In this document: positions 32,650 through 56,596 of the stretch, in pieces
Layout: the number at the start of each line of letters is the position of its first letter
How positions within the stretch are numbered: the first letter of the stretch is position 1
Assembly: GCF_012290005.1 (NCBI RefSeq)
Contig: NZ_JAAXMS010000004.1
Location: forward strand, 186,001-250,000
Source of the DNA: Crateriforma spongiae
GTDB lineage: Bacteria > Planctomycetota > Planctomycetia > Pirellulales > Pirellulaceae
DNA: 64,000 nt
Direction of reading: 5' to 3'
The notes under the pieces: model-generated
Databases searched by the model: none
Seen by the model: the letters and a program-made list of their open reading frames with translations, nothing else
What the model was told of the DNA's origin: nothing
Made by a program: the position numbers and the translations under genes

Positions 32650-33828
32650 ATGCGAAACCCACGCAAGGCCTTCACACTCGTCGAATTGTTGGTCGTGATT
32701 GCGATCATCGGTGTTCTGGTCGGTTTGTTGCTTCCGGCGGTCCAGTCCGCTCGCGAAGCCGCACGTCGAATGTCGTGCAGCAACAACGCCAAACAGCTGG
32801 GCTTGGCGCTGCACAACTATCATAGCGCGTTCAAGCAATTTCCCGCCCACCGCGCCGGCACGACCGGCCGCAAGGGGTATGGAATCAGCTGGAACAATAT
32901 GAACGTGTACAGCAATGACACGCACAATTTCCGGCGTCTCAGCATGCTGGTTGCCTTGACGCCGTTTTTGGAACAACAACCGCTGTGGGACACCATCAGC
33001 AATCCCGTGTCGGTGCAGTACAACGGCAACGCTGCACCCAATGGGGCGTATCCATCGATGGGACCGGTTCCCTGGAAAGGGCAATACACCCCTTGGCGGA
33101 CGCTGGTTTCGGCGTTGCAGTGCCCCAGCGACGCGGGGCCGCCGGTGACCACAGGGACGACCAACTATGGCGCCTGCATCGGCGACTGTGTGCGTGCATT
33201 GGGTTGGGGAAACCCGCCCAAGGAAATCAAACGTGGGTTGTTCCTGAGCGCGACGGTCACGCGGTTCCGTGACATCGTCGATGGCACCGCCAACACGATG
33301 GCCTTGGCGGAAATCACCAACAGCCTGGGCGACCGAGGCATCAGTGGCGGTGGCGCCTACGACATCGGCGGCGACATCAACTTGAGTCCCCAAGAGTGCT
33401 TGGACACGGCCGATCCGCTGCGTCCGAAGTTCTACGCACCTGGCGTGTTGCTGTTGGGCTACAGCGGCAACCTTGGCAAATGGGGCGACGCCGGTCGCGG
33501 CAATCGTTGGTGTGACGGCGGAGGCAACTTTGCCACGTTCAACGCCATCTTGCCGCCCAACAGCCCTAGTTGTTCCCGCGACGGCGGCGATGCCGGTGAT
33601 GGAATCTGGAGTGCCGGCAGCTATCACCCCGGTGGTTGTCACATCGTGATGGGCGACGGTTCGGTGCACTTCGTCAGCGAAGCGATCGATGCCGGTGATC
33701 CCTCGATTCCCGCCGTCGGCCCGGGCAGCTGGAACGGCTCACTCGCCGGCAGCCCCAGTCCCTACGGCATTTGGGGAGCCCTGGGCACGATCAACGGCCG
33801 CGAACAGATCGATATGGATGAACTGTAG
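32650..33828 (+). CDS. DUF1559 pseudopilin-like protein, array copy 1
   Basis: 392 residues; GGGAG (32637-32641) fixes ATG 32650. Domain order, shared by all copies, is a basic prepilin leader cut before FTLVE (Glu at +5), a ~20-residue membrane helix, then the DUF1559 domain ending in the H-X9-DG motif, here HPGGCHIVMGDG. This implies processing by a PilD-type peptidase and assembly in, or display from, the inner membrane like pseudopilins; the exact role of the family is unknown. The residue before the cleavage site is Ala (RKA-F), as in copies 4, 6 and 13. Copy 1 is the most divergent: LVALTPFLEQQ replaces LVGLLPF, and the end is REQIDMDEL in place of REQVSIDDx. Variable segment GISWNNMNVYSNDTHNFRR places it with copies 7, 9 and 14. 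Confidence 0.9.
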   Translation: MRNPRKAFTLVELLVVIAIIGVLVGLLLPAVQSAREAARRMSCSNNAKQLGLALHNYHSAFKQFPAHRAGTTGRKGYGISWNNMNVYSNDTHNFRRLSMLVALTPFLEQQPLWDTISNPVSVQYNGNAAPNGAYPSMGPVPWKGQYTPWRTLVSALQCPSDAGPPVTTGTTNYGACIGDCVRALGWGNPPKEIKRGLFLSATVTRFRDIVDGTANTMALAEITNSLGDRGISGGGAYDIGGDINLSPQECLDTADPLRPKFYAPGVLLLGYSGNLGKWGDAGRGNRWCDGGGNFATFNAILPPNSPSCSRDGGDAGDGIWSAGSYHPGGCHIVMGDGSVHFVSEAIDAGDPSIPAVGPGSWNGSLAGSPSPYGIWGALGTINGREQIDMDEL

Positions 33829-33858
33829 AGCCCTCCCAAGTCCTATTGAACGAATCGC

Positions 33859-33896
33859 AACCGTGGCCCGGATGGAAAACCGGGCCGCGGTTTTTT
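33859..33896 (+). terminator. Terminator of DUF1559 copy 1
   Basis: CCGTGGCCCGG pairs with CCGGGCCGCGG (one G-U), followed by TTTTTT. Confidence 0.8.
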
Positions 33897-34425
33897 CGTT
33901 TTGTAAACACACCGGCATGGTCGTCGTCGCCGGAACGTCGATTTCGATCCAATTTAGGGACGCATCGGGACCTTTTCGGTGGGGATACCGAGTCGGCAAC
34001 ACCCGAAAAACCGGAAAGGTTCGACGTTGCAGCCGAAAATCAGCGAAAAAAATCGAAAAACTTTTATCTTGCCCTCCACCCGTTGGGGCTGGTTTTTTTG
34101 AGCGTGGCGTGGTCGCGCCATCCCCATGGCCACTCGGAGCAGTCTTCATAATGCGAATTCGGGCACCGTTAAGGGTGGTGGTTCGAACAACCCAGTCATC
34201 GAAAGTGGGTTTCGGGAAAAATCCTTGTCAACCCGTCGAATGTCGGAAAATCCTTGGTTTTCCCGCGTTTTACCGATAGCATGCGACATTAGACCGCCAC
34301 TGCGGGGCCGAATTTTACCTTCATTGTCAGGTTTCGCCCGACGGTCAGCTTGTCAAAGCGGATCTCGCCTTGTCTTTCGAGATCCACGTTAAGGGTTTTC
34401 TTTATTGCGTTATCGGAGCGTACAC
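33897..34425. other. Leader region before DUF1559 copy 2
   Basis: No gene. An A-rich patch (about 34010-34060), one TGAGCGT motif (34099-34105) and a weak promoter-like pair TTGGTT (34254-34259)/TAGCAT (34277-34282) with 17-base spacing are seen. Confidence 0.4.
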
Positions 34426-35622
34426 ATGCGTCAAAAACGTGCGGGCTTCACGCTCGTGGAGCTGTTGGTCGTCATCGCGATCATCGGCGTCCTTGTCGGA
34501 CTTCTTCTTCCCGCGGTGCAATCGGCTCGCGAAGCCGCCCGCCGCATGTCGTGCAGCAACAACGCCAAGCAAATCGGTTTGGCGCTGCACAACTATCACA
34601 GTGCTTTCAAACAGTTCCCTGTTCACCGTGCTGGTACGACGGGCCGCAAGGGCTACAACGCGAACTGGAACCAGATGACCAGTGCCGACGATGCCGCCGG
34701 TGGTGGTCGAAACTTCCACAACTTCCGCCGTTTGAGCATCCTGGTCGGCTTGCTGCCGTTCATGGAACAACAGCCGTTGTGGGACACGATCAGCAACCCG
34801 GTCAGCGTCCAGTTCAACGGCAACGCGGCCCCCGGCGGTGCGTACCCCGCGATGGGCCCGACGCCTTGGAAAGGCCAGTACACCCCGTGGCGTACCATGG
34901 TTTCGTCGTTCAATTGCCCCAGCGACAGCGGCCCGGCGACCACCTACGGCACGACCAACTACGGTGCTTGTATGGGTGACGGCATCCGCGGTCTGGGATG
35001 GGCCAATGTGCCGAAGGAAGTCAAGCGTGGGATGTTCATGGGTGCGACCGTGACCCGTTTCCGCGACGTTGTTGACGGAACGGCCAACACCATGGCCCTG
35101 GCGGAAGTCACCAACAGCCTGGGTGACCGTGGCGTCAGCGGTGGTGGTGCCTACGACATCGGTGGCGACATCAACCTGAGCCCGCAAGAGTGCTTGGACA
35201 CGATCGATCCGCTGCGTCCGAAGTTCTTCGCTCCCGGCGTGTTGCTGTTCGGCTACAGCGGCAGCCTCGGAAAGTGGGGCGGATCGGGACGTGGATCACG
35301 TTGGACCGATGGTGGTGGTAACTTCGCCAGCTTCAACGCGATTCTGCCGCCCAACAGCCCGTCTTGCTCACGCGGTGGCGGTGACGCCGGTGACGGAATC
35401 TGGTCGGCCGGCAGTTATCACCCCGGCGGCTGTCACGTCGTGATGGGTGACGGTTCGGTCCACTTCGTCAGCGAAGCGATCGACGCGGGTGACCCGACGA
35501 TTGCCGCGGTCGGCCGTCCCCAGTGGAACGGTTCACCCGCCGGTAGCCCCAGCCCCTACGGCATCTGGGGCGGCTTGGGAACGACCAACGGTCGTGAACA
35601 AGTCAGCGTCGACGATCTGTAA
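34426..35622 (+). CDS. DUF1559 pseudopilin-like protein, array copy 2
   Basis: 398 residues, GGAG seven bases before the ATG. Leader [12 protein letters not shown] has the canonical Gly before the cut. The variable segment after Gly77 ([20 protein letters not shown]) is of the long 'ADD' type shared with copies 3, 10, 11 and 12. From about 35064 to the stop the DNA is almost identical to copy 3 (36899-37459), far closer than the 5' parts, which looks like recent gene conversion or a recent duplication with later drift at the 5' end. Six Cys are spread through the body ([36 protein letters not shown]), suggesting disulfides if exported. Confidence 0.92.
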
Positions 35623-35677
35623 TCGGCACGGTGCAGCCTAGGTGGCTGCCGACTGTTGATTCAGATGCAACGCATGG

Positions 35678-35715
35678 ACGGTTGCCCCGGAACGTCACCG
35701 GGGCAACCGTTTTTT
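35678..35715 (+). terminator. Terminator of DUF1559 copy 2
   Basis: A perfect 13-base stem, ACGGTTGCCCCGG with CCGGGGCAACCGT, followed by TTTTT. Confidence 0.9.
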
Positions 35716-36262
35716 CGCCTCCTGATCACTGGTCAATCGGAGTGCCGGGTCATTGGGGTTCCAGGCGATCGGATTGGCCGGTTCCTGGCGGATTTGACGT
35801 CTCGGTCATTCCGTATGGTCAGAAAATGCCGCCGTGAAATACCTCAGCAGGGTGGCTGCTGTGCTCAACAACCGCGCCTCGACGCAAATGGTTCGAAAAA
35901 TTTCCAGATTTTTTCCAAGAAATGTCAGTGTGTTCAAGTCTTCACTTGTCCCTGCTGGCAGGATGCTCAGCGAAACAACGTCTCTTTCACTTTGAAGAAA
36001 CTCAAAGGCTCGCTGAGGCGACTGCTGAGCGTCAAATTGTCATGCGACACCCCGCCGCACGGGTGCGGCGATGCAAGGGGATGATATGCCAGCGGAATCT
36101 GAAGCTTTCATTAACGCGTCTAGTTGCTAGAAAGCATCGTTAGCAGGTCTTTCGGGAAGACTTTCCTCCATTGCGGTTGCCCGAAGACTGTTTTCGTCTT
36201 TTTCCGTTTGGATCGCTGTTATCGGTGATCCGGTCATTTCTCTTGGTTTGGGAGCGCACTTT
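35716..36262. other. Leader region before DUF1559 copy 3
   Basis: No gene. It carries TGCTCA twice (35862-35867, 35964-35969), TGAGCGT (36026-36032), a 13-base stretch TGGCAGGATGCTC (35956-35968) repeated in the next leader, and a hairpin CGCCGCA/TGCGGCG (36053-36070). Confidence 0.45.
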
Positions 36263-37459
36263 ATGCGTCAAAAACGTGCGGGCTTCACGCTCGTGGAATT
36301 GTTGGTCGTGATCGCGATCATCGGTGTCCTTGTCGGACTTCTTCTCCCCGCGGTTCAGTCGGCTCGCGAAGCCGCCCGCCGCATGTCGTGCAGCAACAAT
36401 GCCAAGCAAATTGGCTTGGCCCTGCACAACTATCACAGTGCTTTCAAGCAGTTCCCCGCCCACCGTGCCGGTACCACCGGTCGCAAGGGTTACAACGTCG
36501 GTTGGAACGACATGGTCGCCGCGGATGATGCCGCCGGCGGTGGTCGAAACTTCCACAACTTCAACCGCTTGAGCATCCTGGTCGGCCTGCTGCCGTTCCT
36601 GGAGCAGCAGCCGCTGTGGGATACGATCAGCAACCCGGTCGCCACCCAATTCAATGGCAACGCCGCGCCCGGTGGCGGATACCCGGCCATGGGGCCGACG
36701 CCTTGGAAGGGCCAGTACACCCCGTGGCGTACCATGGTTTCTGCGTTCAACTGCCCCAGCGACAGCGGCCCGGCGACCACCTACGGCACGACCAACTACG
36801 GTGCCTGCATGGGTGATGCCGTGCGTGCGTTGGGTTGGTCCAACCCGCCCAAAGAAATCAAACGCGGGATGTTCCTGGCCGGCAACGCCACTCGTTTCCG
36901 CGACGTTGTCGACGGAACGGCCAACACCATGGCCCTGGCGGAAGTCACCAACAGCCTGGGTGACCGTGGCGTCAGCGGTGGTGGTGCCTACGACATCGGT
37001 GGCGACATCAACCTGAGCCCGCAAGAGTGCTTGGACACGATCGATCCGCTGCGTCCGAAGTTCTTCGCTCCCGGCGTGTTGCTGTTCGGTTACAGCGGCA
37101 GCCTCGGAAAGTGGGGCGGATCGGGACGTGGAGCACGTTGGACCGATGGTGGCGGTAACTTCGCCAGCTTCACCGCCGTTCTGCCGCCCAACAGCCCGTC
37201 TTGCTCACGCGGTGGCGGTGACGCCGGTGACGGAATCTGGTCGGCCGGCAGTTATCACCCCGGCGGCTGTCACGTCGTGATGGGTGACGGTTCGGTCCAC
37301 TTCGTCAGCGAAGCGATCGACGCGGGTGACCCGACGATTGCCGCGGTCGGTCGGTCCCAGTGGAACGGTTCACCCGCCGGTAGCCCCAGCCCCTACGGCA
37401 TCTGGGGCGGCTTGGGAACGACCAACGGTCGTGAACAAGTCAGCGTCGACGACCTGTAA
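36263..37459 (+). CDS. DUF1559 pseudopilin-like protein, array copy 3
   Basis: 398 residues, GGGAG (36250-36254) in the context GGAGCGCA, also found before copies 8 and 9. Same long 'ADD' variable type as copy 2 ([20 protein letters not shown]), whose 3' half it nearly duplicates. The second variable stretch differs: ALGWSNPPKEIKRGMFLAGNATRF versus [24 protein letters not shown] in copy 2, so the near-identity begins only after this point. Confidence 0.92.
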   Translation: MRQKRAGFTLVELLVVIAIIGVLVGLLLPAVQSAREAARRMSCSNNAKQIGLALHNYHSAFKQFPAHRAGTTGRKGYNVGWNDMVAADDAAGGGRNFHNFNRLSILVGLLPFLEQQPLWDTISNPVATQFNGNAAPGGGYPAMGPTPWKGQYTPWRTMVSAFNCPSDSGPATTYGTTNYGACMGDAVRALGWSNPPKEIKRGMFLAGNATRFRDVVDGTANTMALAEVTNSLGDRGVSGGGAYDIGGDINLSPQECLDTIDPLRPKFFAPGVLLFGYSGSLGKWGGSGRGARWTDGGGNFASFTAVLPPNSPSCSRGGGDAGDGIWSAGSYHPGGCHVVMGDGSVHFVSEAIDAGDPTIAAVGRSQWNGSPAGSPSPYGIWGGLGTTNGREQVSVDDL

Positions 37460-37504
37460 TCGACACGCGGCCGGTGTCCGCTGGCCGCCATCATTGAAAC
37501 TTCG

Positions 37505-37549
37505 AAACGCCGGCGATTGCGAAAGCGATCGCCGGCGTTTTTTTTTTTG
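37505..37549 (+). terminator. Terminator of DUF1559 copy 3
   Basis: AAACGCCGGCGAT pairs with ATCGCCGGCGTTT, followed by an unusually long T-run. First of the GCCGGC-type stems (copies 3-7). Confidence 0.92.
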
Positions 37550-38227: not shown

Positions 38228-39391
38228 ATGAAAAGACAACGCGCAGCATTTACGCTTGTCGAGCTGTTGGTCGTGATCGCGATCATCGGCGTCCTTGTCG
38301 GCCTACTTCTTCCCGCGGTTCAGTCGGCTCGTGAAGCCGCCCGCCGGATGTCGTGCAGCAACAACGCCAAGCAAATTGGCTTGGCTCTGCACAACTATCA
38401 CAGTGCATTCAAGCAGTTCCCCATCAACATGGGCGGTTCGTCCGGGTCGAAGGGGTATGCCAATCTGGTCGGGAACTCGGACCAAAGCAATCGTCGGCGG
38501 TTAAGCATGCTGGTCGGACTGCTGCCGTTCCTGGAGCAACAGCCGCTGTGGGACACGATCAGCAACCCGGTGACGGTTCAGTTCAACGGAAACGCAGCAC
38601 CCAATGGCGCCTATCCGGCGATGGGGCCGTGCCCGTGGCGTGGCGGTTACACGTCGTGGCGGACCATGGTTTCGGCGTTCAATTGCCCCAGCGACAGCGG
38701 CCCGGCGGTGACCACCGGCACGACGAACTACGCCGCGGTGGTCGGGGATTGCGTACGCGCGTTGGCCTCCAGCAATCCACCCAAGGAGGTCCGTCGGGGG
38801 ATGTTTGCGTCGACGACCGCAACGCGATTTCGTGATGTCGTTGATGGGACGGCGAACACGATGGCGCTGGCGGAAATCACCAACAGCCTGGGCGATCGCG
38901 GGGTCAGCGGTGGCGGAGCGTATGATATCGGAGGCGATGTCAACCTGAGCCCACAAGAGTGCTTGGACACGATCGACCCATTGCGTCCGAAATTCTACGC
39001 CCCTGGCGTGATGTTGTTTGGTTACAGCGGCAACCTGGGCAAGTCACCCAACGCGGGGCGTGGCAATCGCTGGGCCGATGGCGGCGGCAACTTCGGCATG
39101 GTCAACGCCGTATTGCCCCCCAACAGCCCCTCGTGTGCTCGCGCTGCTTGGGACGCCGGCGACGGGATTTGGTCGGCCGGCAGTTACCACCCCGGTGGCT
39201 GTCACGTCGTCATGGGTGACGGTTCGGTTCACTTTGTCAGCGAAGCGATCGATGCGGGGAATCCCGCGACCCCCGCCGTCGGAGCTCCTGGATGGAACGG
39301 TTCTCCCGCCGGAAGCCCCAGCCCCTACGGCGTTTGGGGCGGACTGGGAACGATCAACGGTCGTGAACAAGTCAGCATTGACGACATCTAA
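38228..39391 (+). CDS. DUF1559 pseudopilin-like protein, array copy 4
   Basis: 387 residues, the shortest copy. Leader MKRQRAA-FTLVE with Ala at -1. The variable segment is short (ANLVGNSDQSNRRR, 'QSNRRR' type, as in copy 6). The Cys of the YGAC motif is moved: YAAVVGDCVRAL. Variable C-terminal linker is PATPAVGAPGW. Its 3' untranslated region is nearly the same as that of copy 5, although the proteins belong to different types. Confidence 0.92.
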   Translation: MKRQRAAFTLVELLVVIAIIGVLVGLLLPAVQSAREAARRMSCSNNAKQIGLALHNYHSAFKQFPINMGGSSGSKGYANLVGNSDQSNRRRLSMLVGLLPFLEQQPLWDTISNPVTVQFNGNAAPNGAYPAMGPCPWRGGYTSWRTMVSAFNCPSDSGPAVTTGTTNYAAVVGDCVRALASSNPPKEVRRGMFASTTATRFRDVVDGTANTMALAEITNSLGDRGVSGGGAYDIGGDVNLSPQECLDTIDPLRPKFYAPGVMLFGYSGNLGKSPNAGRGNRWADGGGNFGMVNAVLPPNSPSCARAAWDAGDGIWSAGSYHPGGCHVVMGDGSVHFVSEAIDAGNPATPAVGAPGWNGSPAGSPSPYGVWGGLGTINGREQVSIDDI

Positions 39392-39437
39392 TTGACGCTC
39401 GATTCACATCGAGCCCCCGTCACGATTCTTCAGCTGC

Positions 39438-39473
39438 AACGCCGGCCTCGCTCACGCGATCGCCGGCGTTTTT
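39438..39473 (+). terminator. Terminator of DUF1559 copy 4
   Basis: AACGCCGGC pairs with GCCGGCGTT around CTCGCTCACGCGATC-like loop sequence, then TTTTT. Confidence 0.85.
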
Positions 39474-40103
39474 CATGCTTCGGACCAGTGAAAAGAGGCA
39501 ATATCAGGGGGCGGAGCCAGGGCCCATGGTGCATACCGGAAACGGAGCTCCTCTTTGCAAAGCATCTCTCCGCAACGCGTTTTCATTGCCAATGAGATCG
39601 CCAACCGATCACGGTTCTCGGTGCAACGTGTTGCAGTTTTCGCGGTGCATCTCGAGTAATGCGATGCTTCTTAGCTTCGTCCGCGGAGTCGCGAATGCGA
39701 CTTTTACCGACGGAGCTGATACTTTGGAAAAGCAAATCGCAATGTTAATAATAAATATGCGGGCCTAGGGTGTGGCCTTTTGTGCGCTATCGTGCGTCTA
39801 AAAAGCGGTGTGTGTTTGCATTCGTGGTGCGGAATGAGCGGTGCAGGCGTCAAGTGTTGGTTGAGGTGAGCGTGTCGGATTAATAAGGCGTCGTTTTGGG
39901 CTACGCATTCCCATACCACCGATCGTTTACGTCTTTCGAAAGACCATTAGGCTGCGTGCCAGCCCCCGCGTTGAGGCTGCTGTCAAAGCGAATGACGTTG
40001 TCGGCGATTCATCCATTGTCATTGACCGGCAGTGCCGCTGTTTTGACGCAATCGCGTGTGGGCTGTCTTTGCTCTTTCTCTTTTCGTTCGGAGTAATTCT
40101 CGT
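39474..40103. other. Leader region before DUF1559 copy 5
   Basis: No gene. A good promoter candidate lies at 39724-39752 and a TGAGCGT at 39867-39873. If that promoter is used the 5' untranslated RNA would be about 345 bases. Confidence 0.45.
39724..39752 (+). promoter_or_regulatory. Candidate sigma-70 promoter for DUF1559 copy 5
   Basis: TTGGAA, 17 bases, AATAAT (four and five matches of six to consensus), in an A/T-rich patch that stands out from the surrounding GC-rich DNA. Confidence 0.5.
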
Positions 40104-41273
40104 ATGCGCACAAAACGTGCTGGCTTCACATTGGTGGAGCTGTTGGTCGTGATCGCGATCATCGGTGTCCTGGTCGGACTTCTTCTTCCCGCGGTTCAGT
40201 CGGCTCGCGAAGCCGCCCGCCGCATGTCGTGCAGCAACAACGCCAAGCAAATTGGCCTAGCGTTGCACAATTATCACAGCGCTTTCAAACAGTTTCCCGC
40301 GGAGAGAGCCGGAACGACGGGGTTCCGAGGCTACGCCGGTCAGGGCATTGTCGGCGGCAACAATCAAAGCAATCGGTGTCGGTTGAGCATGCTGGTGGGC
40401 CTATTGCCATTCCTGGAACAACAGCCGTTGTGGGACACGATCAGCAACCCGGTCGCGACGCAGTTCAACGGGAATGCGGCCCCCAATGGTGCCTACCCCG
40501 CGATGGGGCCGGTGCCGTGGACCGGCCAGTACACGCCCTGGCGAACCATGGTCTCACCATTTAACTGCCCCAGTGATTCAGGGCCTGCGGTCACGACCGG
40601 AACAACCAATTACGCCGCCTGCGTGGGCGATGTGGTCGACCACTTGGGGTCTCGCAATCCGGCCAAGGAAGTCATGCGAGGTTTGTTCATGGTGGCAACG
40701 CACCGAAAGTTCCGCGATATCGTCGACGGAACTGCCAACACAATCGCAATGGCGGAAATCACCAACAGCTTGGGCGACCGCGGGGTGAGTGGCGGCGGGA
40801 TGTACGATCCGACGTTCAATGCCCGTACCGAACCACACTTATGTGCCCAAACGATCGACCCCCTACGTCCCAAATTCTACGCACCGGGAATCCTGTTGCT
40901 TGGTTATAGCGGCAGCTTGGGTAAGTGGGGGAATGCCGGTCGCGGAAATCGCTGGTCTGATGGTGGTGGCAACTTCACAATGGTCAACACCATCTTGCCA
41001 CCCAACAGCCCTAGCTGCTCCGCCGGCGGCGGCGATGCGGCAGCCGGAATCTGGTCGGCCGGCAGCTACCACCCCGGCGGCTGTCATGTGGTGATGGGCG
41101 ACGGCTCGGTTCACTTTGTCAGCGAAGCGATCGATGCTGGCGACCCGACGGTTCCGACTGTCACCCGTCCAAACCAGAACGGATCGCCCGCCGGTATCGC
41201 CAGCCCCTACGGGGTTTGGGGCGGTTTGGGAACCGTCAACGGTCGTGAACAAGTCAGCATCGACGACATCTAA
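40104..41273 (+). CDS. DUF1559 pseudopilin-like protein, array copy 5
   Basis: 389 residues from ATG 40104 (GGAG ten bases upstream; the frame is open further 5' without a start context). Leader [12 protein letters not shown]. Variable segment [16 protein letters not shown] has an extra Cys, shared with copies 8 and 13 (type 'NKCR'). This type also has [27 protein letters not shown], lacks the QECLDT motif (here [11 protein letters not shown]) and ends [28 protein letters not shown] replaces the usual [12 protein letters not shown]. Confidence 0.92.
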
Positions 41274-41321
41274 TTGACGCTCGATTCACATCGAGACCCA
41301 TCGTCACGACTCTGCAGCTGC

Positions 41322-41356
41322 AACGCCGGCCTCGCTCACGCGATCGCCGGCGTTTT
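41322..41356 (+). terminator. Terminator of DUF1559 copy 5
   Basis: AACGCCGGC with GCCGGCGTT, then a short TTTT; sequence nearly identical to the terminator of copy 4, including ~40 bases upstream. Confidence 0.8.
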
Positions 41357-41862
41357 GCATGCGCTTGATGAGGTTTCTGGGGCGTCGATCCCCGCTTTGT
41401 CGTGGCACGATCCTCCAATAATCTGGCACGTTTATGCTTGTCGACCTGTCGTGTTCGATTGGTTTCGAAAATTCCAGCGGAAATAACGGAAAAATTTCGG
41501 TCGATTCGGGCAACGCGTTGTCGCCCGGAAGAATCACGTGTTCTCGCCACTCGTGTTGAACAATCCCCCGCTATTTGCCGGTTAAATCGTGGTCGGACGC
41601 CATTGCACCGGACGCGGTTTTGAAGTCCCAGGCGACCAGGGGTTGCGAGATCTGAGCGTGGGTGTGCTCAGGAATTTAGTGGCAATATAAGGCTTGTTCG
41701 CTATCCCTGTTACAGGCACGCGAGTGCAAGTTTTATCAGCCTTTGGGTTTTGTGAATCTTCGGCGGCGTCCTTCAACGCTTTGACGACGGGCGGCCGGGG
41801 ATCGGCGATTCAGGGCGAAATTCCCTTCTTCTTCTCAGTCTTTGTTTCGGGAGTGTTGATCC
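41357..41862. other. Leader region before DUF1559 copy 6
   Basis: No gene. TGAGC (41653-41657) and GCTCA (41666-41670) form an inverted pair; an isolated TATAAG follows at about 41685. The last ~65 bases match the leader of copy 4. Confidence 0.45.
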
Positions 41863-47180: not shown

Positions 47181-48359
47181 ATGCGTCAACAACGTGCGGG
47201 CTTCACGCTCGTCGAACTCTTGGTCGTGATCGCCATCATCGGTGTCCTGGTCGGTCTGCTTCTTCCCGCGGTTCAGTCGGCGCGTGAAGCCGCTCGCCGT
47301 ATGTCGTGCAGCAACAATGCCAAGCAAATCGGCCTGGCCCTGCACAACTATCACAGTGCTTTCAAGCAATTCCCCGCTCACCGCGCGGGAACCACGGGTA
47401 AGAAAGGCTACCTGGCCAATTGGACGGAAATGAGTGCGTACAGCACTGACACGCACAACTATCGCCGGCTGAGCATGCTGGTCGGATTGTTGCCGTTCAT
47501 CGAACAGCAGCCTTTGTGGGACACCATCAGCAATCCCGTCACCGTCCAATTCAACGGCAATGTAGCGCCCAACGGTGCCTATCCCGCGATGGGACCGACC
47601 CCGTATCGGTCCCAATACACGCCGTGGCGGACGCTGATTTCGGCGTTCAATTGCCCCAGCGACTCGGGACCTCCGGTCACCTACGGCACGACCAACTACG
47701 GTGCCTGCATCGGTGACACCGTTCTGGCACAGGCATGGGCCAACCCGCCCAAGGAAGTCAAGCGTGGCGTGTTCACCGGCGCGACGGTGACCCGTTTCCG
47801 CGACGTCGTCGACGGAACGGCCAACACGATCGCGATCGCCGAATTGACCAACAGCCTGGGCGACCGCGGCGTTGGCGGCGGTGGTGCCTACGACATCGGT
47901 GGCGACATCAACCTGAACCCGCAAGAGTGCTTGGACACTCGCGACCCGCAACGGCCGAAGTTCTACGCACCCGGCGTGCTGCTATTCGGCTACAGCGGCA
48001 ACTTGGGCAAATGGGGCGATGCCGGACGAGGCAACAAGTGGGCCGATGGCGGTGGCAACACCTGTTCGGTGACTACGATTCTGCCTCCCAACAGCCCCTC
48101 GTGTGCGCACCGCAGCAATGACGCCGATGACGGCATCTGGAGCGCCGGCAGTTACCACCCCGGCGGCTGCCACGTAGTGATGGCGGACGGTTCGGTCCAC
48201 TTTGTCAGCGAAGCGATTGACGCGGGTGATCCGTCGATCCCGGCCGTCGGACAACCCAGCTGGGGCGGTTCGGTCGCCGGCAGCCCGAGCCCCTACGGCA
48301 TCTGGGGCGGACTGGGCACGATCAATGGTCGAGAGCAAGTCAGCATTGACGACATTTAA
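47181..48359 (+). CDS. DUF1559 pseudopilin-like protein, array copy 9
   Basis: 392 residues from ATG 47181, with TGGAGCGCA upstream. Leader [12 protein letters not shown]. Variable segment LANWTEMSAYSTDTHNYRR, almost the same as copy 14 (LASWGEMSAYSTDTHNYRR), with which it also shares TPYRxQYTPWRTLISAF, [22 protein letters not shown] and NDADDGIWSAG; these two are clear sisters although four copies lie between them. The motif end is MADGSVHF (Ala in place of Gly before DG), as in copy 13. Confidence 0.92.
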   Translation: MRQQRAGFTLVELLVVIAIIGVLVGLLLPAVQSAREAARRMSCSNNAKQIGLALHNYHSAFKQFPAHRAGTTGKKGYLANWTEMSAYSTDTHNYRRLSMLVGLLPFIEQQPLWDTISNPVTVQFNGNVAPNGAYPAMGPTPYRSQYTPWRTLISAFNCPSDSGPPVTYGTTNYGACIGDTVLAQAWANPPKEVKRGVFTGATVTRFRDVVDGTANTIAIAELTNSLGDRGVGGGGAYDIGGDINLNPQECLDTRDPQRPKFYAPGVLLFGYSGNLGKWGDAGRGNKWADGGGNTCSVTTILPPNSPSCAHRSNDADDGIWSAGSYHPGGCHVVMADGSVHFVSEAIDAGDPSIPAVGQPSWGGSVAGSPSPYGIWGGLGTINGREQVSIDDI

Positions 48360-48436
48360 CCTTCGAAAGTTCGCCAAGCGAGCCCGATTTGCGGCGGCGG
48401 CGACAACAATCTGACAAGAAAATCAAAAAAAATTGG

Positions 48437-48480
48437 AGGCCGCGGGTTGAGACATCGACCCGCGGCCTTCTTCTGTTTTT
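48437..48480 (+). terminator. Terminator of DUF1559 copy 9
   Basis: AGGCCGCGGGT pairs with ACCCGCGGCCT, followed by TCTTCTGTTTTT. Confidence 0.8.
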
Positions 48481-48501: not shown

Positions 48502-48514
48502 GCTCAGTGTGAGC
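48502..48514. promoter_or_regulatory. Palindromic operator-like site upstream of copy 10
   Basis: GCTCAGTGTGAGC, same arms and spacing as the site at 43247-43259, and the same GTTCT follows. Confidence 0.4.
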
Positions 48515-48627
48515 GTTCTCATTGGCGGCTACAGGCACCTTCTTGTGGGTGGGGCCAGTCTACTTCGGCAGTGGATCTCTTGTTCACCTTCAAGGCGTTT
48601 TTTGGGTTCAGATGGCTCCTTTATGCG

Positions 48628-48633: not shown

Positions 48634-48811
48634 GCGGTGTAGTGTCGCATTGCAAGGCGACAGGGGTGGCTCCTTCTGAGCGTGAGTGCCTTGTTTTTGT
48701 GCGTCCCTTTGCTTCACGGATTTCGGTGACCCACCGGATTCGTGGATTTCTTGCCGGCTTTTTCTTTGTCGCCGGCTCGAGTTCTTGTTGATGTCATTTC
48801 GGAGAGTTTCT

Positions 48812-49999
48812 ATGCGTCAAAAACGTGCGGGCTTTACGCTCGTGGAGCTGCTGGTCGTGATCGCGATCATCGGCGTCCTTGTCGGACTTCTTCTTCCCGC
48901 GGTTCAGTCGGCTCGTGAAGCCGCCCGCCGCATGTCGTGCAGCAACAACGCCAAGCAAATTGGTTTGGCCCTGCACAACTACCACAGTGCTTTCAAGCAG
49001 TTCCCCACACACCGTGCCGGCACGACCGGTCGCAAAGGCTACAACGTTAGCTGGAACGACATGGTGGCCGCCGACGACGGCAACCGGAACATGCACAACT
49101 TCAACCGTCTGAGTTTCCTGGTCGGCCTGTTGCCATTTGTCGAACAACAGCCGTTGTGGGACCAGATCAGCAACCCGGTCAGCGTCCAGTTCAACGGCAA
49201 TGCGGCGCCTAACGGTGCGTATCCCGCGATGGGCCCGACGCCTTGGAAAAACCAGTACACGCCGTGGCGTACGATGATCGCGGCGTTCAATTGTCCCAGC
49301 GATTCGGGACCGCCGGTGACCTACGGCACGACCAACTATGGTGCATGCTTGGGTGACGTCGCGCGTGGCTTGGGCTGGGCCAATCCGCCCAAGGAAATCA
49401 AGCGTGGTGCTTTCTTGTCGGCGACCGTTCGTCGTTTCCGCGACTTCGTCGACGGGACCGCCAACACGATCGCGGTCGGCGAAATCACCAACAGCCTGGG
49501 TGACCGAGGCGTCAGCGGTGGCGGTGCTTATGACATCGGCGGCGACGTCAGCTTGAGCCCGCAAGAATGCTTGGACACGATCGATCCGCTGCGTCCGAAG
49601 TTCTTCGCACCCGGCGTCATGCTGTTTGGTTACAGCGGCAACCTCGGCAAGTGGGGCGATGCGGGCCGCGGAAACAAGTGGATGGACGGCGGCGGGAACA
49701 CCTGTAGCATGGCCACCATCTTGGCCCCCAACAGCCCGTCCTGTTCACGTGACGGTAACGACGCCGGCGACGGAATCTGGTCCGCCGGCAGCTATCACCC
49801 GGGCGGCGTTCACGTCGTGATGGGTGACGGTTCGGTCCACTTTGTCAGTGAAGCGATCGACGCGGGTGACCCGACCATTCCCACGGTCACCTCGCCGAAC
49901 CACGGCGGTTCGCCAGCCGGTATCGCCAGCCCGTACGGTGTCTGGGGTGCATTGGGAACCGTCAACGGTCGCGAACAAGCCAGCATCGACGACATCTAA
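48812..49999 (+). CDS. DUF1559 pseudopilin-like protein, array copy 10
   Basis: 395 residues from ATG 48812, GGAG upstream. Leader [12 protein letters not shown]. Variable segment NVSWNDMVAADDGNRNMHNFNR is of the 'ADD' type and closest to copy 3, but the C-terminal linker [18 protein letters not shown] resembles that of the 'NKCR' copies, so the gene is a mosaic. HPGGVHVVMGDG lacks the Cys found in twelve copies, leaving an odd number of body Cys. FRDFVDG replaces FRDVVDG. The end reads REQASIDDI. Confidence 0.92.
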   Translation: MRQKRAGFTLVELLVVIAIIGVLVGLLLPAVQSAREAARRMSCSNNAKQIGLALHNYHSAFKQFPTHRAGTTGRKGYNVSWNDMVAADDGNRNMHNFNRLSFLVGLLPFVEQQPLWDQISNPVSVQFNGNAAPNGAYPAMGPTPWKNQYTPWRTMIAAFNCPSDSGPPVTYGTTNYGACLGDVARGLGWANPPKEIKRGAFLSATVRRFRDFVDGTANTIAVGEITNSLGDRGVSGGGAYDIGGDVSLSPQECLDTIDPLRPKFFAPGVMLFGYSGNLGKWGDAGRGNKWMDGGGNTCSMATILAPNSPSCSRDGNDAGDGIWSAGSYHPGGVHVVMGDGSVHFVSEAIDAGDPTIPTVTSPNHGGSPAGIASPYGVWGALGTVNGREQASIDDI

Positions 50000-50029
50000 T
50001 CGTCAAACGTTGGCACGGATAGACATGCG

Positions 50030-50067
50030 AAACCGCGGGCCGAGTGATCGGTCCGCGGTTTCTTTTT
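50030..50067 (+). terminator. Terminator of DUF1559 copy 10
   Basis: AAACCGCGGGCCGA against TCGGTCCGCGGTTT, followed by CTTTTT. Confidence 0.88.
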
Positions 50068-50529: not shown

Positions 50530-51738
50530 ATGCAACAAAAACGCCATGGATTCACCCTGGTGGAGCTGTTGGTCGTGATCGCGATCATTGGCGTGTTGGT
50601 CGGTCTGCTTTTGCCCGCCGTTCAATCGGCGCGCGAAGCGGCGCGACGGATGGCATGCAGCAACAATGCCAAGCAAGTCGGCTTGGCACTGCACAACTAT
50701 CACAGCGCGTTCAAACAGTTCCCCGCTCACCGAGCCGGCACGACCGGCGTCAAAGGATACGACGCCACGTGGAATCAAATGACGTCGGCCGATGACGGGG
50801 CCGGCGGCGGACGCAACTTCCACAACTTTCGTCGGCTCAGCATGCTGATCGGATTGTTGCCGTTTATCGAACAGCAGCCTTTGTGGGACACGATCAGCAA
50901 CCCGTTGTCCACCCAGTACAACGGCAATGCCGCGCCCGGCGGTGCTTATCCCGCGATGGGGCCGACGCCTTGGAAGAACCAGTACACGCCATGGCGGACC
51001 CTGGTGGGAACGTTCCAGTGTCCCAGTGATTCGGGGCCGCCGGTGACTTACGGCACGACGAACTATGCCGCCTGTGTCGGCGATGTCGTTCGAGGTCTTG
51101 GTTCGCGAATCCCGCCGTCGTCGATCCAGCGTGGGATTTTCATGTCCGCTTCGGCGCGTCGTTTCCGTGACATCGTTGACGGCACGGCGAACACGATCGC
51201 GGTCGGCGAAATCACCAACAGCCTGGGCGACCGTGGCATCAGCGGCGGTGGCGCCTATGAGGACAGTGGACCGGCGTTTGGTGACATCAACATCACGCCC
51301 CAGAATTGTGCCGACCAAGTTGATCCGCTGCGTCCGAAGTTTTTCAAGCCCGGCGTATTGCTGTTCGGCTACACGGGCAATCTTGGGAAATGGGGTGCCG
51401 AAGGCCGCGGGGGCAAGTACATGGATGGTGCGACCAACCAAACGTCGATGAACACCATCCTGCCGCCCAACAGTCCGTCGTGTTCCTACAACAACCAGGA
51501 CAATGCCGACGGGATCTGGAGCGCCGGCAGTTATCACCCCGGCGGATGTCACGTGGTGATGGGGGACGGTTCGGTCCACTTCATTAGCGAAGCGGTGGAT
51601 GCCGGGGACGCGACGTTCAGCGCGGTCGGCCAACCGGGATGGAACGGTTCACCGGCCGGGGCCGCCAGTCCCTACGGCGTCTGGGGCGGTTTGGGGACCA
51701 CCAACGGTCGCGAACAAGTCAGCATTGACGACCTGTAA
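50530..51738 (+). CDS. DUF1559 pseudopilin-like protein, array copy 11
   Basis: 402 residues from ATG 50530. Leader MQQKRHG-FTLVE. MACSNNAKQVG replaces [11 protein letters not shown]. Variable segment [20 protein letters not shown] matches copy 2's. The central part is unusual: RGLGSRIPPSSIQRGIFMSASARRF lacks the common PKE motif, and an insertion gives AYEDSGPAFGDINITPQNCADQVDP. Later come [14 protein letters not shown] and SYNNQDNADGIWSAG. The most divergent body among copies 2-14. Confidence 0.9.
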   Translation: MQQKRHGFTLVELLVVIAIIGVLVGLLLPAVQSAREAARRMACSNNAKQVGLALHNYHSAFKQFPAHRAGTTGVKGYDATWNQMTSADDGAGGGRNFHNFRRLSMLIGLLPFIEQQPLWDTISNPLSTQYNGNAAPGGAYPAMGPTPWKNQYTPWRTLVGTFQCPSDSGPPVTYGTTNYAACVGDVVRGLGSRIPPSSIQRGIFMSASARRFRDIVDGTANTIAVGEITNSLGDRGISGGGAYEDSGPAFGDINITPQNCADQVDPLRPKFFKPGVLLFGYTGNLGKWGAEGRGGKYMDGATNQTSMNTILPPNSPSCSYNNQDNADGIWSAGSYHPGGCHVVMGDGSVHFISEAVDAGDATFSAVGQPGWNGSPAGAASPYGVWGGLGTTNGREQVSIDDL

Positions 51739-51792
51739 CGCGTCAACTTCACACGGCTGTCCGTCTTGAGTGCGGGCTGGTATCCACCGCCA

Positions 51793-51830
51793 AACGCCGC
51801 GGACCGAATGATCGGTTTGCGGCGTTTTTT
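51793..51830 (+). terminator. Terminator of DUF1559 copy 11
   Basis: AACGCCGCGGACCGA pairs with TCGGTTTGCGGCGTT (G-U pair included), followed by TTTT. Confidence 0.88.
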
Positions 51831-52274
51831 CGTCGTCGGATACTGGAATATCACTGCCTATCGCGGTCATCGTGGCTGTCTTGACCGACGCGCCCCCCCT
51901 CGTCGATTCGGCTCATCTGCGGTGTGTTTTTGCGCTTTCTTGGCAAAAAATGGTGCGTTTAAGTCTCTTTGAGTGCGACTTGTGAGCGTCCCGTGTGTTA
52001 GGTTGAGTCAAAGTGCCGCCCCCTGGTGGGGTCTTTTCGACTAGTTCGCTGATGTCGTTTCAAACGCCGGGTCGGGAGCACCGTGCGGGCCAAAACGTGG
52101 ACCGGATCCCTGGCCGACGGAATCCCCGATTCATGGCGTCGTGATCGATGAGCTTTGCGATCAAGTCGGGCACGGTTTGCATCATTCGGAGCCGAGGCAG
52201 CGTTGGCGGGCGGGTAGCCGCCGGTGGCGTGTTCGGCTTCCAGCGACTTTTCCTTATCACGCGGAGACATCCTT
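51831..52274. other. Leader region before DUF1559 copy 12
   Basis: No gene. One TGAGCGT (51983-51989), preceded by a TTTGAGTGCGACT stretch; no clear promoter pair. Confidence 0.35.
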
Positions 52275-53471
52275 ATGCAACGAAGGCACCACGGATTTAC
52301 CTTGGTGGAGCTGTTGGTCGTGATCGCGATCATCGGCGTCTTGGTGGGTCTGCTTTTGCCCGCCGTTCAATCGGCACGCGAAGCCGCCCGCCGCATGTCG
52401 TGCAGCAACAACGCCAAACAAATCGGCTTGGCACTGCACAATTACCACAGTGCGTTCAAGCAATTCCCCGTCCACCGTGCCGGCACGACGGGAAAGAAGG
52501 GCTATAACGCCAATTGGAACGATATGGTCAATGCCGACGACGGCAGCCGTAACACTCACAATTTCCGCCGGCTCAGCATGCTGGTCGGCCTGTTGCCGTT
52601 CATCGAACAGCAGCCTCTTTGGGACACGATCAGCAATCCGGTTGCGGTCCAGTTCAACGGAAATCCGGCGCCCAACGGCGCCTACCCGGCAATGGGGCCG
52701 GTGCCGTGGAAAGGGCAATACACGCCGCACCGGACGATTGTTCCCGCTTTTCAGTGCCCCAGCGACGCGGGTCCCCCGGTGACGTTCGGCACGACCAACT
52801 ATGCCGCATGTATCGGCGACGTCGCGTTCGGCATCGGTTGGGCGAACCCGCCCAAGGAAGTCAAACGCGGCATGTTCTTGTCCAGTCAGATTCGACGTTT
52901 CCGTGACGTCGTCGACGGGACGGCCAACACGATCGCGATCGGTGAAATCACCAACAGCCTTGGCGACCGTGGCATCACCAGCGGTGGCGCATACGACATT
53001 GGCGGCAGTGTGTATTTGAATCCGCAAGAGTGCTTGGATACCAAGGATCCGCTGCGGCCCAAGTTCTTTGCGCCCGGCGTGTTGTTGCTGGGCTACAGCG
53101 GCAACCTTGGCAAAGGCGGCAACGCGGGACGCGGGAACCGTTGGATGGACGGCGGCAGCAACTTCACAACGATGGCCACGATCCTGGCGCCCAACAGTCC
53201 GTCGTGTGCCCAGGTCGCCGGTGACGCGGGCGACGGGGTATGGAGCGCCGGCAGTTATCACCCCGGCGGCATTCACGTCGTGATGGGTGACGGTTCGGTT
53301 CACTTCGTCAGCGAAGCGATCGATGCGGGTGACCCGACGGTGCCGACCGTGTTCAACGGCAATAACAACAACCCGGCGGGTTCGCCGGCCGGTATCGCCA
53401 GCCCCTACGGCGTGTGGGGGGGCTTGGGAACGACCAACGGTCGCGAACAAGTTAGCGTCGACGACATTTAA
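52275..53471 (+). CDS. DUF1559 pseudopilin-like protein, array copy 12
   Basis: 398 residues from ATG 52275, GGAG nine bases upstream. Leader [12 protein letters not shown] is His-rich. Variable segment [22 protein letters not shown] ('ADD' type). [12 protein letters not shown] lacks the usual Cys, as in copy 10, and the C-terminal linker [20 protein letters not shown] is the longest. [11 protein letters not shown] and [18 protein letters not shown] differ from the consensus; GKGGNAGRG lacks the usual Trp. GNPAPNGAY replaces GNAAPNGAY. Confidence 0.92.
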
Positions 53472-53502: not shown

Positions 53503-53538
53503 AACGCCGCGGATCGGGTGATCGGTCCGCGGCGTTTT
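53503..53538 (+). terminator. Terminator of DUF1559 copy 12
   Basis: AACGCCGCGGATCG against CGGTCCGCGGCGTT, followed by TT and G; nearly the same as the copy 8 terminator. Confidence 0.8.
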
Positions 53539-53758
53539 GCGTATGCAAGGCGTCAGGTTGGGGGTTTGTTCACTGGTTGATCGGTGGGGGACTGTTTTAG
53601 GGATAAAAACGAAAATACATATGCGAAAATTGAAACCAATGCGATTGGTTGGGGTTTGAGAATGCAGTGGCCCAATCGGCCGGCTGCGTGAGCGTCGCAA
53701 TGAGTCGCCGAATTGGCCCGCTTTTCGTTTTCGTCCCGTTCCCTGAAAGACCCAGACC

Positions 53759-54973
53759 GTGAAAACTTTCGATTCCTCTTCGGATGGTTGTCCATCCCCG
53801 CGGCGTACACCACAAGTCCGTTCGGCATTCACGCTTGTCGAGTTGTTGGTGGTCATTGCGATCATCGGCGTTCTTGTCGGACTTCTGCTTCCCGCGGTCC
53901 AGTCGGCTCGCGAAGCCGCCCGCCGCATGTCGTGCAGCAACAACGCCAAGCAAATCGGCTTGGCGCTGCACAATTACCACAGTGCGTTCAAGCAATTCCC
54001 CGCCCAACGTGCCGGCACGACCGGGTCGAAGGGCTACAACGGCGTGATCGATGCGGATAACAACGCCAGCAACAAGTGCCGGCTGAGCATGTTCGTGGGG
54101 TTGATGCCGTTTCTGGAGCAACAGCCGCTGTGGGACACGATCAGCAATCCTGTGGCCGTTCAGTACAACGGCAACGCGGCCCCCAACGGTGCTTATCCCG
54201 CGATGGGACCGGTGCCGTGGACCGGCCAATACACGCCGTGGCGGACGGTTGTTTCGTCGCTGCAGTGCCCCAGCGACAGCGGTCCGCCGGTGACAACGGG
54301 GACCATCAATTACGCCGGATGTGTCGGCGACGTGGTGGACCAGATTGGATCCCGTGCCCCGGCCAAAGAAGTCATCCGTGGGTTGTTCATGGTCGCAATG
54401 CACCGTCGTTTTCGTGATGTCGTCGACGGCACGGCTAACACGATTGCGATCGGCGAAATCACCAACAGCCTGGGCGACCGTGGCGTCAGCGGTGGCGGTT
54501 CCTACGACGACGGATTCAACGTCCGGTTGGAACCCGACATGTGTGCGGCCAACATTGATCCGCTGCGTCCGAAGTTCTATCGCGACGGTGCGATGTTGCT
54601 GGGGTACGCCGCGCCGCTGGGCAAATGGGAAGGCGCCGGACGGGGCAATCGATGGGCCGATGGCGGCGGCAACTTGTCCTGCTTCAACACGATTTTGCCG
54701 CCCAACAGCCCCAGTTGCTCGGCCGACGGTGGCGACAGCGGGCCCGGAATCTGGAGCGCCGGCAGCTATCACCCCGGCGGTTGTCATGTCGTGATGGCCG
54801 ACGGATCGGTGCACTTCATCAGCGAAGCGGTGGATGCCGGTGACAATACCGTTCCCACCGTCACGCGGCCCAGCCAAGGCGGATCGGCCGCCGGCATTCC
54901 CAGCCCGTACGGTGTCTGGGGTGGTTTGGGCACGACCAACGGTCGAGAACAAGTCAGCATCGACGACATTTAA
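53759..54973 (+). CDS. DUF1559 pseudopilin-like protein, array copy 13 (extended leader)
   Basis: 404 residues from GTG 53759, the only copy without an ATG next to the prepilin leader. The predicted N-terminus [20 protein letters not shown] is about twice as long and less basic than the others before SA-FTLVE, and no GGAG is seen, so expression may be low or the real start unusual. The spacer to copy 12 is the shortest (287 bases). Body of the 'NKCR' type ([15 protein letters not shown]), close to copy 8, with [20 protein letters not shown] and MADGSVHF. It may be a fusion of a displaced promoter region to the conserved helix. Confidence 0.85.
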
Positions 54974-55012
54974 TCGGCTCGGATCAATCGTCCGACAGCC
55001 AGATTCGCAACG

Positions 55013-55047
55013 ACGCCGCGGTCCGATCCCATCGGACTGCGGCGTTT
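55013..55047 (+). terminator. Terminator of DUF1559 copy 13
   Basis: ACGCCGCGGTCCGAT pairs with ATCGGACTGCGGCGT (one mismatch), followed by only TT. Confidence 0.65.
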
Positions 55048-55334
55048 CGTCGTCATGGCCGCAATGCTGCGTTGATTCGCCACTGCAATCCGCTGCCATG
55101 CGATCTGGCCAGGTGTGCAGTAAACGTGGGTTTTCATGCGGTCAACGAAGTGCAATGTGTTCCTGTGTGCAGTGGTGGTCGATTTAAGGGGTGATGGATT
55201 CGCGTATTTCATTCGCAGTGGTAGACGAATACACTTTGCCGGACATGCGAAGTGCCAACAGTTTATCTGGCTATTGTAGGACAAGATGGCGGGCTCTTTG
55301 CGACTCGTTCTTTTCTCTCGGAGTGTGAACCATC

Positions 55335-56513
55335 ATGCGAAGCAAAAAATCAGGCTTCACGTTGGTCGAACTGTTGGTCGTGATCGCGATCATTGGTGTC
55401 CTTGTCGGCCTTCTTCTTCCCGCGGTTCAGTCGGCTCGTGAAGCCGCCCGCCGTATGTCGTGCAGCAACAACGCCAAGCAAATCGGGCTGGCGCTGCACA
55501 ACTATCACAGCGCGTTCAAGCAATTCCCCGCTCACCGCGCCGGCACCACCGGCAAGAAGGGCTACCTGGCCAGCTGGGGTGAAATGAGTGCTTACAGCAC
55601 CGACACGCACAACTATCGCCGGCTGAGCATGTTGGTCGGTTTGTTGCCGTTCATCGAGCAGCAACCTTTGTGGGACACGATCAGCAATCCGGTGTCAACG
55701 CAATTCAACGGCAATGCGGCACCCAACGGTGCTTATCCCGCGATGGGCCCGACCCCGTATCGCAACCAATACACGCCGTGGCGAACGCTGATTTCGGCGT
55801 TCAATTGCCCCAGCGATGCCGGTCCGCCGGTGACCTTCGGCACGACCAATTACGGTGCCTGTATCGGTGACACCGTGCGTGCACAGGGCTGGGCCAACAT
55901 GCCCAAGGAAGTCAAGCGTGGGATGTTCACGCCCGCCAACAAGACGCGATTCCGTGACGTCGTCGACGGGACGGCCAACACGATCGCGATTGCCGAACTG
56001 ACCAACAGCCTGGGCGACCGCGGCGTCGGTGGCGGTGGTGCCTATGACATCGGTGGTGACATCAACCTGAACCCGCAAGAGTGCTTGGACACCCGCGACC
56101 CGCTGCGTCCGAAGTTCTACGCTCCCGGCGTGATGCTGTTCGGCTACAGCGGAAACTTGGGCAAGTGGGGCCAAGCCGGCCGTGGTAACAAGTGGGCCGA
56201 CGGTGGCGGAAACATGAGTGCCGTCACCACGATCTTGCCGCCCAACAGTCCTTCCTGTGCACGCGGCGGCAACGACGCCGATGACGGGATCTGGAGTGCC
56301 GGCAGTTACCACCCCGGCGGCTGTCACGTCGTGATGGGGGACGGTTCGGTCCACTTCGTCAGCGAAGCGATCGATTCCGGCGACTCGACCGTTGCCGCGG
56401 TTGGCCGCCCGCAATGGAACGGTTCGCCCGCCGGCAGCCCCAGCCCGTATGGCATCTGGGGTGGCTTGGGAACGATCAATGGTCGCGAACAAGTCAGCGT
56501 GGACGATCTGTAA
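55335..56513 (+). CDS. DUF1559 pseudopilin-like protein, array copy 14
   Basis: 392 residues; CTCGGAGTG lies upstream of the ATG. Leader MRSKKSG-FTLVE. Sister of copy 9 through the variable segment and the [19 protein letters not shown] stretch. [20 protein letters not shown] is unique. It keeps MGDGSVHF and ends [10 protein letters not shown], like copies 2 and 3. Last of the array; a small lipoprotein gene follows after 316 bases. Confidence 0.92.
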   Translation: MRSKKSGFTLVELLVVIAIIGVLVGLLLPAVQSAREAARRMSCSNNAKQIGLALHNYHSAFKQFPAHRAGTTGKKGYLASWGEMSAYSTDTHNYRRLSMLVGLLPFIEQQPLWDTISNPVSTQFNGNAAPNGAYPAMGPTPYRNQYTPWRTLISAFNCPSDAGPPVTFGTTNYGACIGDTVRAQGWANMPKEVKRGMFTPANKTRFRDVVDGTANTIAIAELTNSLGDRGVGGGGAYDIGGDINLNPQECLDTRDPLRPKFYAPGVMLFGYSGNLGKWGQAGRGNKWADGGGNMSAVTTILPPNSPSCARGGNDADDGIWSAGSYHPGGCHVVMGDGSVHFVSEAIDSGDSTVAAVGRPQWNGSPAGSPSPYGIWGGLGTINGREQVSVDDL

Positions 56514-56560
56514 TCGTCTCGCCGCCTGGATCCGGGCGGCCGACGACCAGCCATTCGCAG

Positions 56561-56596
56561 ACGCCGCGAGTCGATGCCCGACTCGCGGCGTTTTTT
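56561..56596 (+). terminator. Terminator of DUF1559 copy 14
   Basis: A perfect 11-base stem ACGCCGCGAGT with ACTCGCGGCGT, followed by TTTTT. Confidence 0.9.

Follow-up and report, generated by a model that had tools for sequence, protein, structure and literature searches.

The DNA studied here is a 64,000-nucleotide stretch of the Crateriforma spongiae genome (C4:186001–250000 of 6.87 Mb), referred to below as the window. It contains a tandem array of 14 co-directional DUF1559 (PF07596) genes on the + strand, at positions 32650–56513 counted from first start to last stop, and this array is a real and unusual expansion of a known protein family. Most of its units have orthologs under strong purifying selection in a sister species, and eight of the 14 carry a new array-specific signal, the heptamer TGAGCGT, in their leaders. 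The explanation favoured in the current study, to which we give about an even chance, is a genus-level tandem expansion that produced 14 specialised pilin-like isoforms for surface filaments, with the heptamer-bearing units commonly regulated.

The DUF1559 array and its rarity

The 14 genes comprise 387–404 codons each, and all of their products scored over the Pfam cut-off for PF07596, matching model positions 1–267 of 268. They are separated by intergenic gaps of 287–768 nt, and no other PF07596 match of the genome (E≤0.001) lies between them. An earlier reading made from the letters of the window (the sequence-only reading) had described 14 uninterrupted co-directional paralogues of 387–404 residues with leaders of 0.29–0.77 kb, and these features were all recovered. 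Pairwise identity among the array paralogs is 71–93%. The PF07596 matches of the genome at E≤0.001 fill 52 rows, three of which are second pieces of split matches, leaving about 49 genes; at E≤1e-10 there were 48 matches. By the latter threshold, another genome of the family, 6.4 Mb in size (G049:C1), has at least 151.

In the relatives surveyed, such genes mostly stand alone or in short runs. The 72 named loci compared were picked for their similarity to gene 7, come from other genera and extend up to 10 kb either side (some being cut by contig ends); the longest run was one gene in 67 of them and two genes in five. In six hand-picked one-contig genomes of the family, a script that counted genes on the same strand with starts no more than 4 kb apart found longest runs of three (G007, G213 and G173) or two (G218, G180 and G172), and a run of at least four was seen by eye in G049 among the matches listed. 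A full-text literature search, which left subscription papers mostly outside, gave no recognised description of such an array.

Large paralog groups of the family are known. The available parts of the respective papers report 91 paralogs with N_methyl and SBP_bac_10 domains in Tuwongella immobilis (PMC8567305), 68 DUF1559 paralogs in Planctopirus limnophila, where they form the largest paralog group and are of unknown function (PMC10632474), and 74 PF07596 paralogs in Rhodopirellula baltica (PMC2754498). All three species resemble C. spongiae in family and in having a large paralog group, and Tuwongella also in its domains, N_methyl and SBP_bac_10 both having matched all 14 array proteins. The Tuwongella copies, as far as the accessible text of PMC8567305 goes, are evenly spread, whereas here 14 of about 49 copies make up a single tandem clade marked by an array-specific heptamer.

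Orthology, selection and gene conversion

The sole other genome of the genus compared, G001, consists of one contig of 7,182,433 bases. Its DNA is 93.6% identical to the window over positions 25054–37544 (including units 1–3) and 92.5% identical over 59498–64000. The G001 array has 13 units (B4 and similar names denote its members), 12 of which are one-to-one orthologs of window units in the same order. The 12 orthologous pairs are 97.2–100% identical in amino acid sequence, the unit 12 protein being identical, and their dN/dS ratios of 0.00–0.08 at dS 0.13–0.28 demonstrate strong purifying selection on the separate isoforms. Values of dS among window paralogs are 0.28–1.71. Because the 12 pairs are ordered and the paralogs are more diverged than the orthologs, the expansion precedes the species split.

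A phylogenetic tree paired the 12 orthologs in the same way as the sequence comparison and placed the 27 array proteins of both genomes together behind a single branch (support 100/99), in a sample in which 13 of 43 aligned loci and seven dispersed genes stood alongside the array and the bootstrap had not settled. The structure alignment covered 13 of the 14 window proteins (gene 3 was left out) and 43 of the 72 loci.

The arrays differ at one slot, where window units 4 and 5 face the single G001 unit B4. The 563 nt upstream of B4 have no match in the window; B4 resembles unit 5 from about 60 nt before the start and again at the 3′ end, and its middle is unlike. The start of B4 alone is weak evidence of descent, because much of the 5′ coding part is common to all paralogs. 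Most units have thus been kept distinct since the species split, and one slot has turned over. The sequence-only reading had regarded strictly conserved copy number and order in related strains as speaking against its view of the array; what was found is nearly strict conservation, but with 14 units against 13 and one slot replaced.

Sequence exchange between units was also detected. Units 2 and 3 are 95–100% identical over their 3′ half and 33–58% identical outside the coding region, so that this conversion is confined to coding DNA. Their synonymous differences in the 3′ half are 0.00–0.10, compared with 0.15–0.23 between orthologs. These low values, together with the greater divergence of the corresponding pair in G001, date the exchange to after the split. 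Shorter tracts of low difference were found at the 5′ ends of two window units (7 and 10) and, in G001, of B3/B9 and B2/B3, with one more close to the 3′ ends of B3 and B13. Synonymous differences at the 5′ ends are low for orthologs too (0.09–0.12), and for this reason the short 5′ tracts may partly reflect codon constraint. Homogenisation across the array is patchy.

Pilin-like features of the proteins

A prepilin-like leader and an H-X9-DG motif in every copy, as proposed by the sequence-only reading, were confirmed by profile matches, with N_methyl as well as TIGR02532 and TIGR04294 (the last at E≤0.001) hitting 14 of 14 proteins; for TIGR04294, the H-X9-DG C-terminal domain, copies 1, 7 and 13 were above the cut-off of 19 bits. 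In all 14, the predicted prepilin cleavage motif has G or A at −1 and E at +5, followed by a hydrophobic helix. A structural model of gene 7 (pLDDT 88, pTM 0.85) consists of one long N-terminal helix (residues 10–61) and a head with short strands. Residues 1–61 are nearly invariant among the 14 proteins (0.16 bits, compared with 0.61 bits for residues 62–392), and variation within the array thus lies mostly outside the N-terminal helix.

A profile search of PDB sequences returned 22 solved chains at E≤1, of which 20 align from the N-terminal helix. These are pilins or pseudopilins, except for one called only 'uncharacterized', and the best is 'Geopilin domain 1 protein' (E 3e-7); the remaining two (E 0.5 and 0.98) match elsewhere and are unconvincing. 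With Foldseek, the gene 7 model matched nothing in PDB at E≤0.001, the first of 18 rows being the Thermus pilin PilA4 (E 0.5), and no chain with a two-lobed solute-binding fold occurred among these 18 rows. The N-terminal part of GspG, the major pseudopilin of type II secretion (TIGR01710), matched 14 of 14 proteins at E≤0.001. Copies 1, 7 and 13, however, scored 38.5, 39.6 and 38.2 bits, far below the equivalog cut-off of 88.85, and the array proteins are about three times the length of the 134-position model.

In the C. spongiae genome, prepilin peptidase was matched over cut-off at two places, and there were 14 matches to T2SSE. Given these prepilin peptidase and secretion-ATPase matches, processing and assembly of the array products would be possible.

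Predicted transcription units

Each gene was taken to begin at the start codon closest upstream of its prepilin motif. GGAG precedes 13 of the 14 starts, the exception, as stated in the sequence-only reading, being copy 13, which has a GTG start and a longer N-terminus. The same arrangement is present in G001, and the first 22 codons of copy 13 differ from those of its ortholog by one synonymous and one non-synonymous change. A terminator-type hairpin, likewise claimed earlier for every copy, was found 3′ of all 14 stops, 11 of them clearly by script and those of copies 2, 13 and 14 by folding the DNA. Over the 100 nt that follow the stops, folding z-scores average −3.5, compared with −0.5 in controls taken 150–250 nt before the starts. 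Copy 9 is the sole stop region without a low score (+0.3), its hairpin beginning 76 nt past the stop, and the T-tracts look weak behind copies 9, 12 and 13.

The individual genes, all on the + strand, are as follows. Gene 1 (32650–33828, 392 amino acids) has its hairpin at 33859–33892, and gene 2 (34426–35622, 398 amino acids, 3′ half converted with gene 3) at about 35678–35710. Genes 3 (36263–37459, 398 amino acids) and 4 (38228–39391, 387 amino acids, without an ortholog in G001) are followed by hairpins at 37504–37541 and within 39432–39479, respectively. The hairpin of gene 5 (40104–41273, 389 amino acids), at whose place G001 has the different unit B4, lies within 41317–41362, that of gene 6 (41863–43029, 388 amino acids) at 43080–43113, and that of the modelled gene 7 (43668–44846, 392 amino acids) at 44897–44926. 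Gene 8 (45358–46524, 388 amino acids; hairpin 46554–46587) is followed by gene 9 (47181–48359, 392 amino acids; hairpin 48435–48470), gene 10 (48812–49999, 395 amino acids; hairpin 50029–50062) and gene 11 (50530–51738, 402 amino acids; hairpin 51792–51827). Gene 12 (52275–53471, 398 amino acids), whose protein is the one identical in G001, precedes a hairpin at 53503–53536. Genes 13 (53759–54973, 404 amino acids) and 14 (55335–56513, 392 amino acids) end the array, with hairpins at about 55013–55045 and 56561–56591.

Each copy has its own leader and hairpin, and 13 of 14 have GGAG; a consensus scan for sigma-70-like promoters revealed no excess (3 and 0 found, 3.2 and 3.0 expected). The anatomy supports the view that the array is not built as one operon; that each copy is its own transcription unit is a prediction only. 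Searches of Rfam at gathering scores and for tRNAs found no match.

A shared heptamer in the leaders

Orthologous leaders of the window and G001 are 79–92% identical with gaps counted. Conservation is highest over the final 100 nt and near the terminator, and the DNA between is about as diverged as synonymous sites, a profile that is as expected for a putative order of terminator, spacer, promoter and leader.

Counting words in 15 leaders (the 14 of the window and that of B4) detected TGAGCGT in nine, compared with a maximum of eight in 100 shuffles. Within the 64 kb, the heptamer occurs 10 times on the + strand, always in array leaders and in eight of the 14 units (2, 3, 5, 6, 7, 10, 12 and 13; twice each in 7 and 10). 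In the reverse orientation there is none in the leaders and a single copy in the window, at 29972. Against a background taken from 400 kb of G001 (31 matches on both strands, two of them in about 23 kb of presumed intergenic DNA), 10 occurrences in 5983 nt of trimmed leaders compare with 0.24 expected (p 1e-13, or 2e-9 after multiplication by 16384 heptamers). The leaders of G001 have eight (0.21 expected), partly by descent, and the B4 leader, which is unrelated to the window, has two (0.03 expected). Six of nine comparable sites are kept in G001 (p = 0.015 at an assumed identity of 83%, 0.03 at 85%, the mean of 12 leader pairs). The upstream regions of 20 of the approximately 35 dispersed DUF1559 genes, 18.6 kb in all, contain one TGAGCGT.

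All sites are on the + strand. Those conserved in G001 are at 34099–34105 (unit 2), 36026–36032 (unit 3), 41653–41659 (unit 6), 48510–48516 and 48677–48683 (unit 10) and 53689–53695 (unit 13). The second copy of unit 7, at 43368–43374, has one mismatch in G001, and the first, at 43255–43261, is not conserved, nor is that of unit 12 at 51983–51989. The first copies of units 7 and 10 each form the right half of GCTCA-N3-TGAGC. The site of unit 5 (39867–39873), with TGAGCGG 32 bp upstream, has no ortholog to compare.

A G stands 8 bases upstream of TGAGCGT at 11 of 12 sites. The 16-base extension TG-N7-TGAGCGT has 44 matches genome-wide, with 34 for the reversed control; seven of the 44 are in the array, all on the + strand, and outside it at most two matches per 10 kb were seen by eye. 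As eight of 14 leaders share an oriented heptamer, many units look commonly regulated, and these data suggest that common regulation of the heptamer-bearing units may act via the array-specific TGAGCGT.

Other candidates were less successful. TGAGCGT was rejected as a sigma factor element, as no second box at a fixed distance was visible by eye, and in-phase repeats with 32-bp spacing were seen only in units 5 and B4, too few to claim. Another candidate word, ATGCGA, was found in six of 15 leaders. Structured 5′ leaders as a general feature were also discarded, the average folding being unremarkable (mean z −0.85 for 14 window units and −1.0 for 13 G001 units). Stable leader hairpins do precede units 10–13 at the same place in both genomes; for units 10, 12 and 13, but not for 11, z is clearly low in at least one genome.

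Proposed function and alternative explanations

The proteins are most likely pilin isoforms of surface filaments that share one assembly helix and differ in their heads. In the proposed mechanism, one DUF1559 pilin-like gene expanded in tandem to 14 isoform genes at the genus level. The product would be inserted in the inner membrane, where prepilin peptidase would cleave it ahead of the invariant F-T-L-V-E helix, and the common helix would build the isoforms into surface filaments or a pseudopilus-like fibre, in which exposed head loops probably differ between isoforms. A common factor acting on DNA or leader RNA probably sets the timing or ratio of the heptamer-bearing units, while homologous recombination between coding regions would now and then convert or replace a unit. 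Almost every isoform is old and has been preserved in its own right by purifying selection, as shown for 12 pairs, and the isoforms are therefore likely to be specialised rather than interchangeable. A pilin-like assembly helix with varied heads fits the surface or fibre subunits envisaged by the sequence-only reading; its 'interchangeable repertoire' is not supported, as 12 of 13 G001 units are orthologous, in order and 97–100% identical.

The best functional parallel found is the pilin set PilA1–PilA6 of Haloferax volcanii, which, according to the available parts of PMC4371748, likewise has an almost completely conserved hydrophobic domain, and in which each pilin can form a pilus and adhesion differs. 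This set is archaeal and numbers six proteins, and is likened to the array by way of working, not by sequence. In the accessible text of PMC8567305, the Tuwongella proteins with N_methyl and SBP_bac_10 domains are mostly in the Triton- and SDS-soluble fractions, and that of PMC5394234 describes pili-like fibres at crateriform structures of Planctopirus and Gemmata that bind dextran; a link between these fibres and the array would be a guess by analogy. A bolder version of the favoured explanation, held tentatively and well short of even confidence, is a dedicated pilin-isoform locus of 14 separately promoted subunits, in which an array-specific regulator or regulatory RNA would read TGAGCGT and tune the composition of one fibre, possibly that emerging from the crateriform pits from which the genus seems to take its name.

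Several observations weigh against pilin isoforms under common control. The head of the gene 7 model matches no solved fold at E≤0.001, so that the argument for a filament role comes from the N-terminal helix, and such a helix is common to pseudopilins, minor pilins and other prepilin-peptidase substrates. No assembly gene was present among the neighbouring genes scanned. As to regulation, six of the 14 leaders (1, 4, 8, 9, 11 and 14) have no exact copy of the heptamer, which elsewhere stands anywhere from 70 to 413 nt before the start, and three of the nine comparable sites are not kept in G001. The best 6-mer (10 leaders) and 8-mer (5) do not beat shuffles (12 and 6), and Gibbs sampling for a shared two-block promoter motif reached 13.1 bits, compared with 12.9–14.1 in four shuffled controls.

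The copies might instead be functionally one protein, multiplied to supply large amounts of one structural subunit, with neutral differences between them. Tandem copies of high identity joined by conversion tracts would be expected under such a dosage effect, which is nevertheless unlikely, as the copies keep their own sequences across species under purifying selection, the paralogs are far more diverged than the orthologs, and homogenisation is patchy. Still less probable is a varying repertoire in which exchange or switching of copies alters the surface. Gene conversion does occur, and one slot was replaced, with units 4 and 5 on one side and B4, which has ends like unit 5 and a different middle, on the other, but order and sequence are preserved in 12 of the 13 sister units. 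Antigenic variation of the pilE/pilS type uses one expression site and truncated silent copies. In the array no truncated cassette was seen, all 14 copies being full length with leader and hairpin, and thus no silent-cassette arrangement of this type was found there, silent copies elsewhere in the genome not having been sought.

A solute-binding or osmolyte-related envelope function, after the Pfam name SBP_bac_10, appears about equally improbable. The Rhodopirellula transcriptome study calls PF07596 a solute-binding family; in the part available, nine of its genes are reported as upregulated within an hour of cold and salt shock, and 16 as downregulated by heat shock (PMC2754498). The N-terminus in the array is of the prepilin type, however, and no binding protein was matched by the gene 7 model among its 18 PDB rows or by sequence profile, although a head of new fold might still bind a ligand. 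Least probable, and barely to be expected, is that TGAGCGT is a Chi-like recombination signal promoting conversion in the array rather than a regulatory element. The heptamer is short, oriented and concentrated at a locus with conversion tracts; Chi-like signals, however, are spread over a genome, whereas TGAGCGT has 31 matches on both strands of the 400 kb of G001 and its 16-base form is near the control count genome-wide.

The compact 14-gene clade, the shared leader signal and the 13-unit sister species make the function of DUF1559 testable: one deletion would remove the whole isoform set, and the heptamer offers a handle on regulation.

Flanking genes

Two dihydroorotate dehydrogenase genes belonging to different classes flank the array, a PyrD subfamily 1 gene upstream (31310–32248, + strand) and a quinone-dependent enzyme downstream (58274–59416, − strand). 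The downstream gene is missing at this place in G001, which has 80 bp for 1.2 kb. After the array, ORF 57362–58291 (+ strand) encodes a PEP-CTERM protein whose trypsin-like match is weak and below threshold. At window positions 24881–25053, the end of the second NfeD gene (24390–25022), G001 has approximately 8.4 kb of other DNA. Further upstream, an open frame of 1115 amino acids (11980–15324, − strand) has no Pfam match at E≤1e-5.

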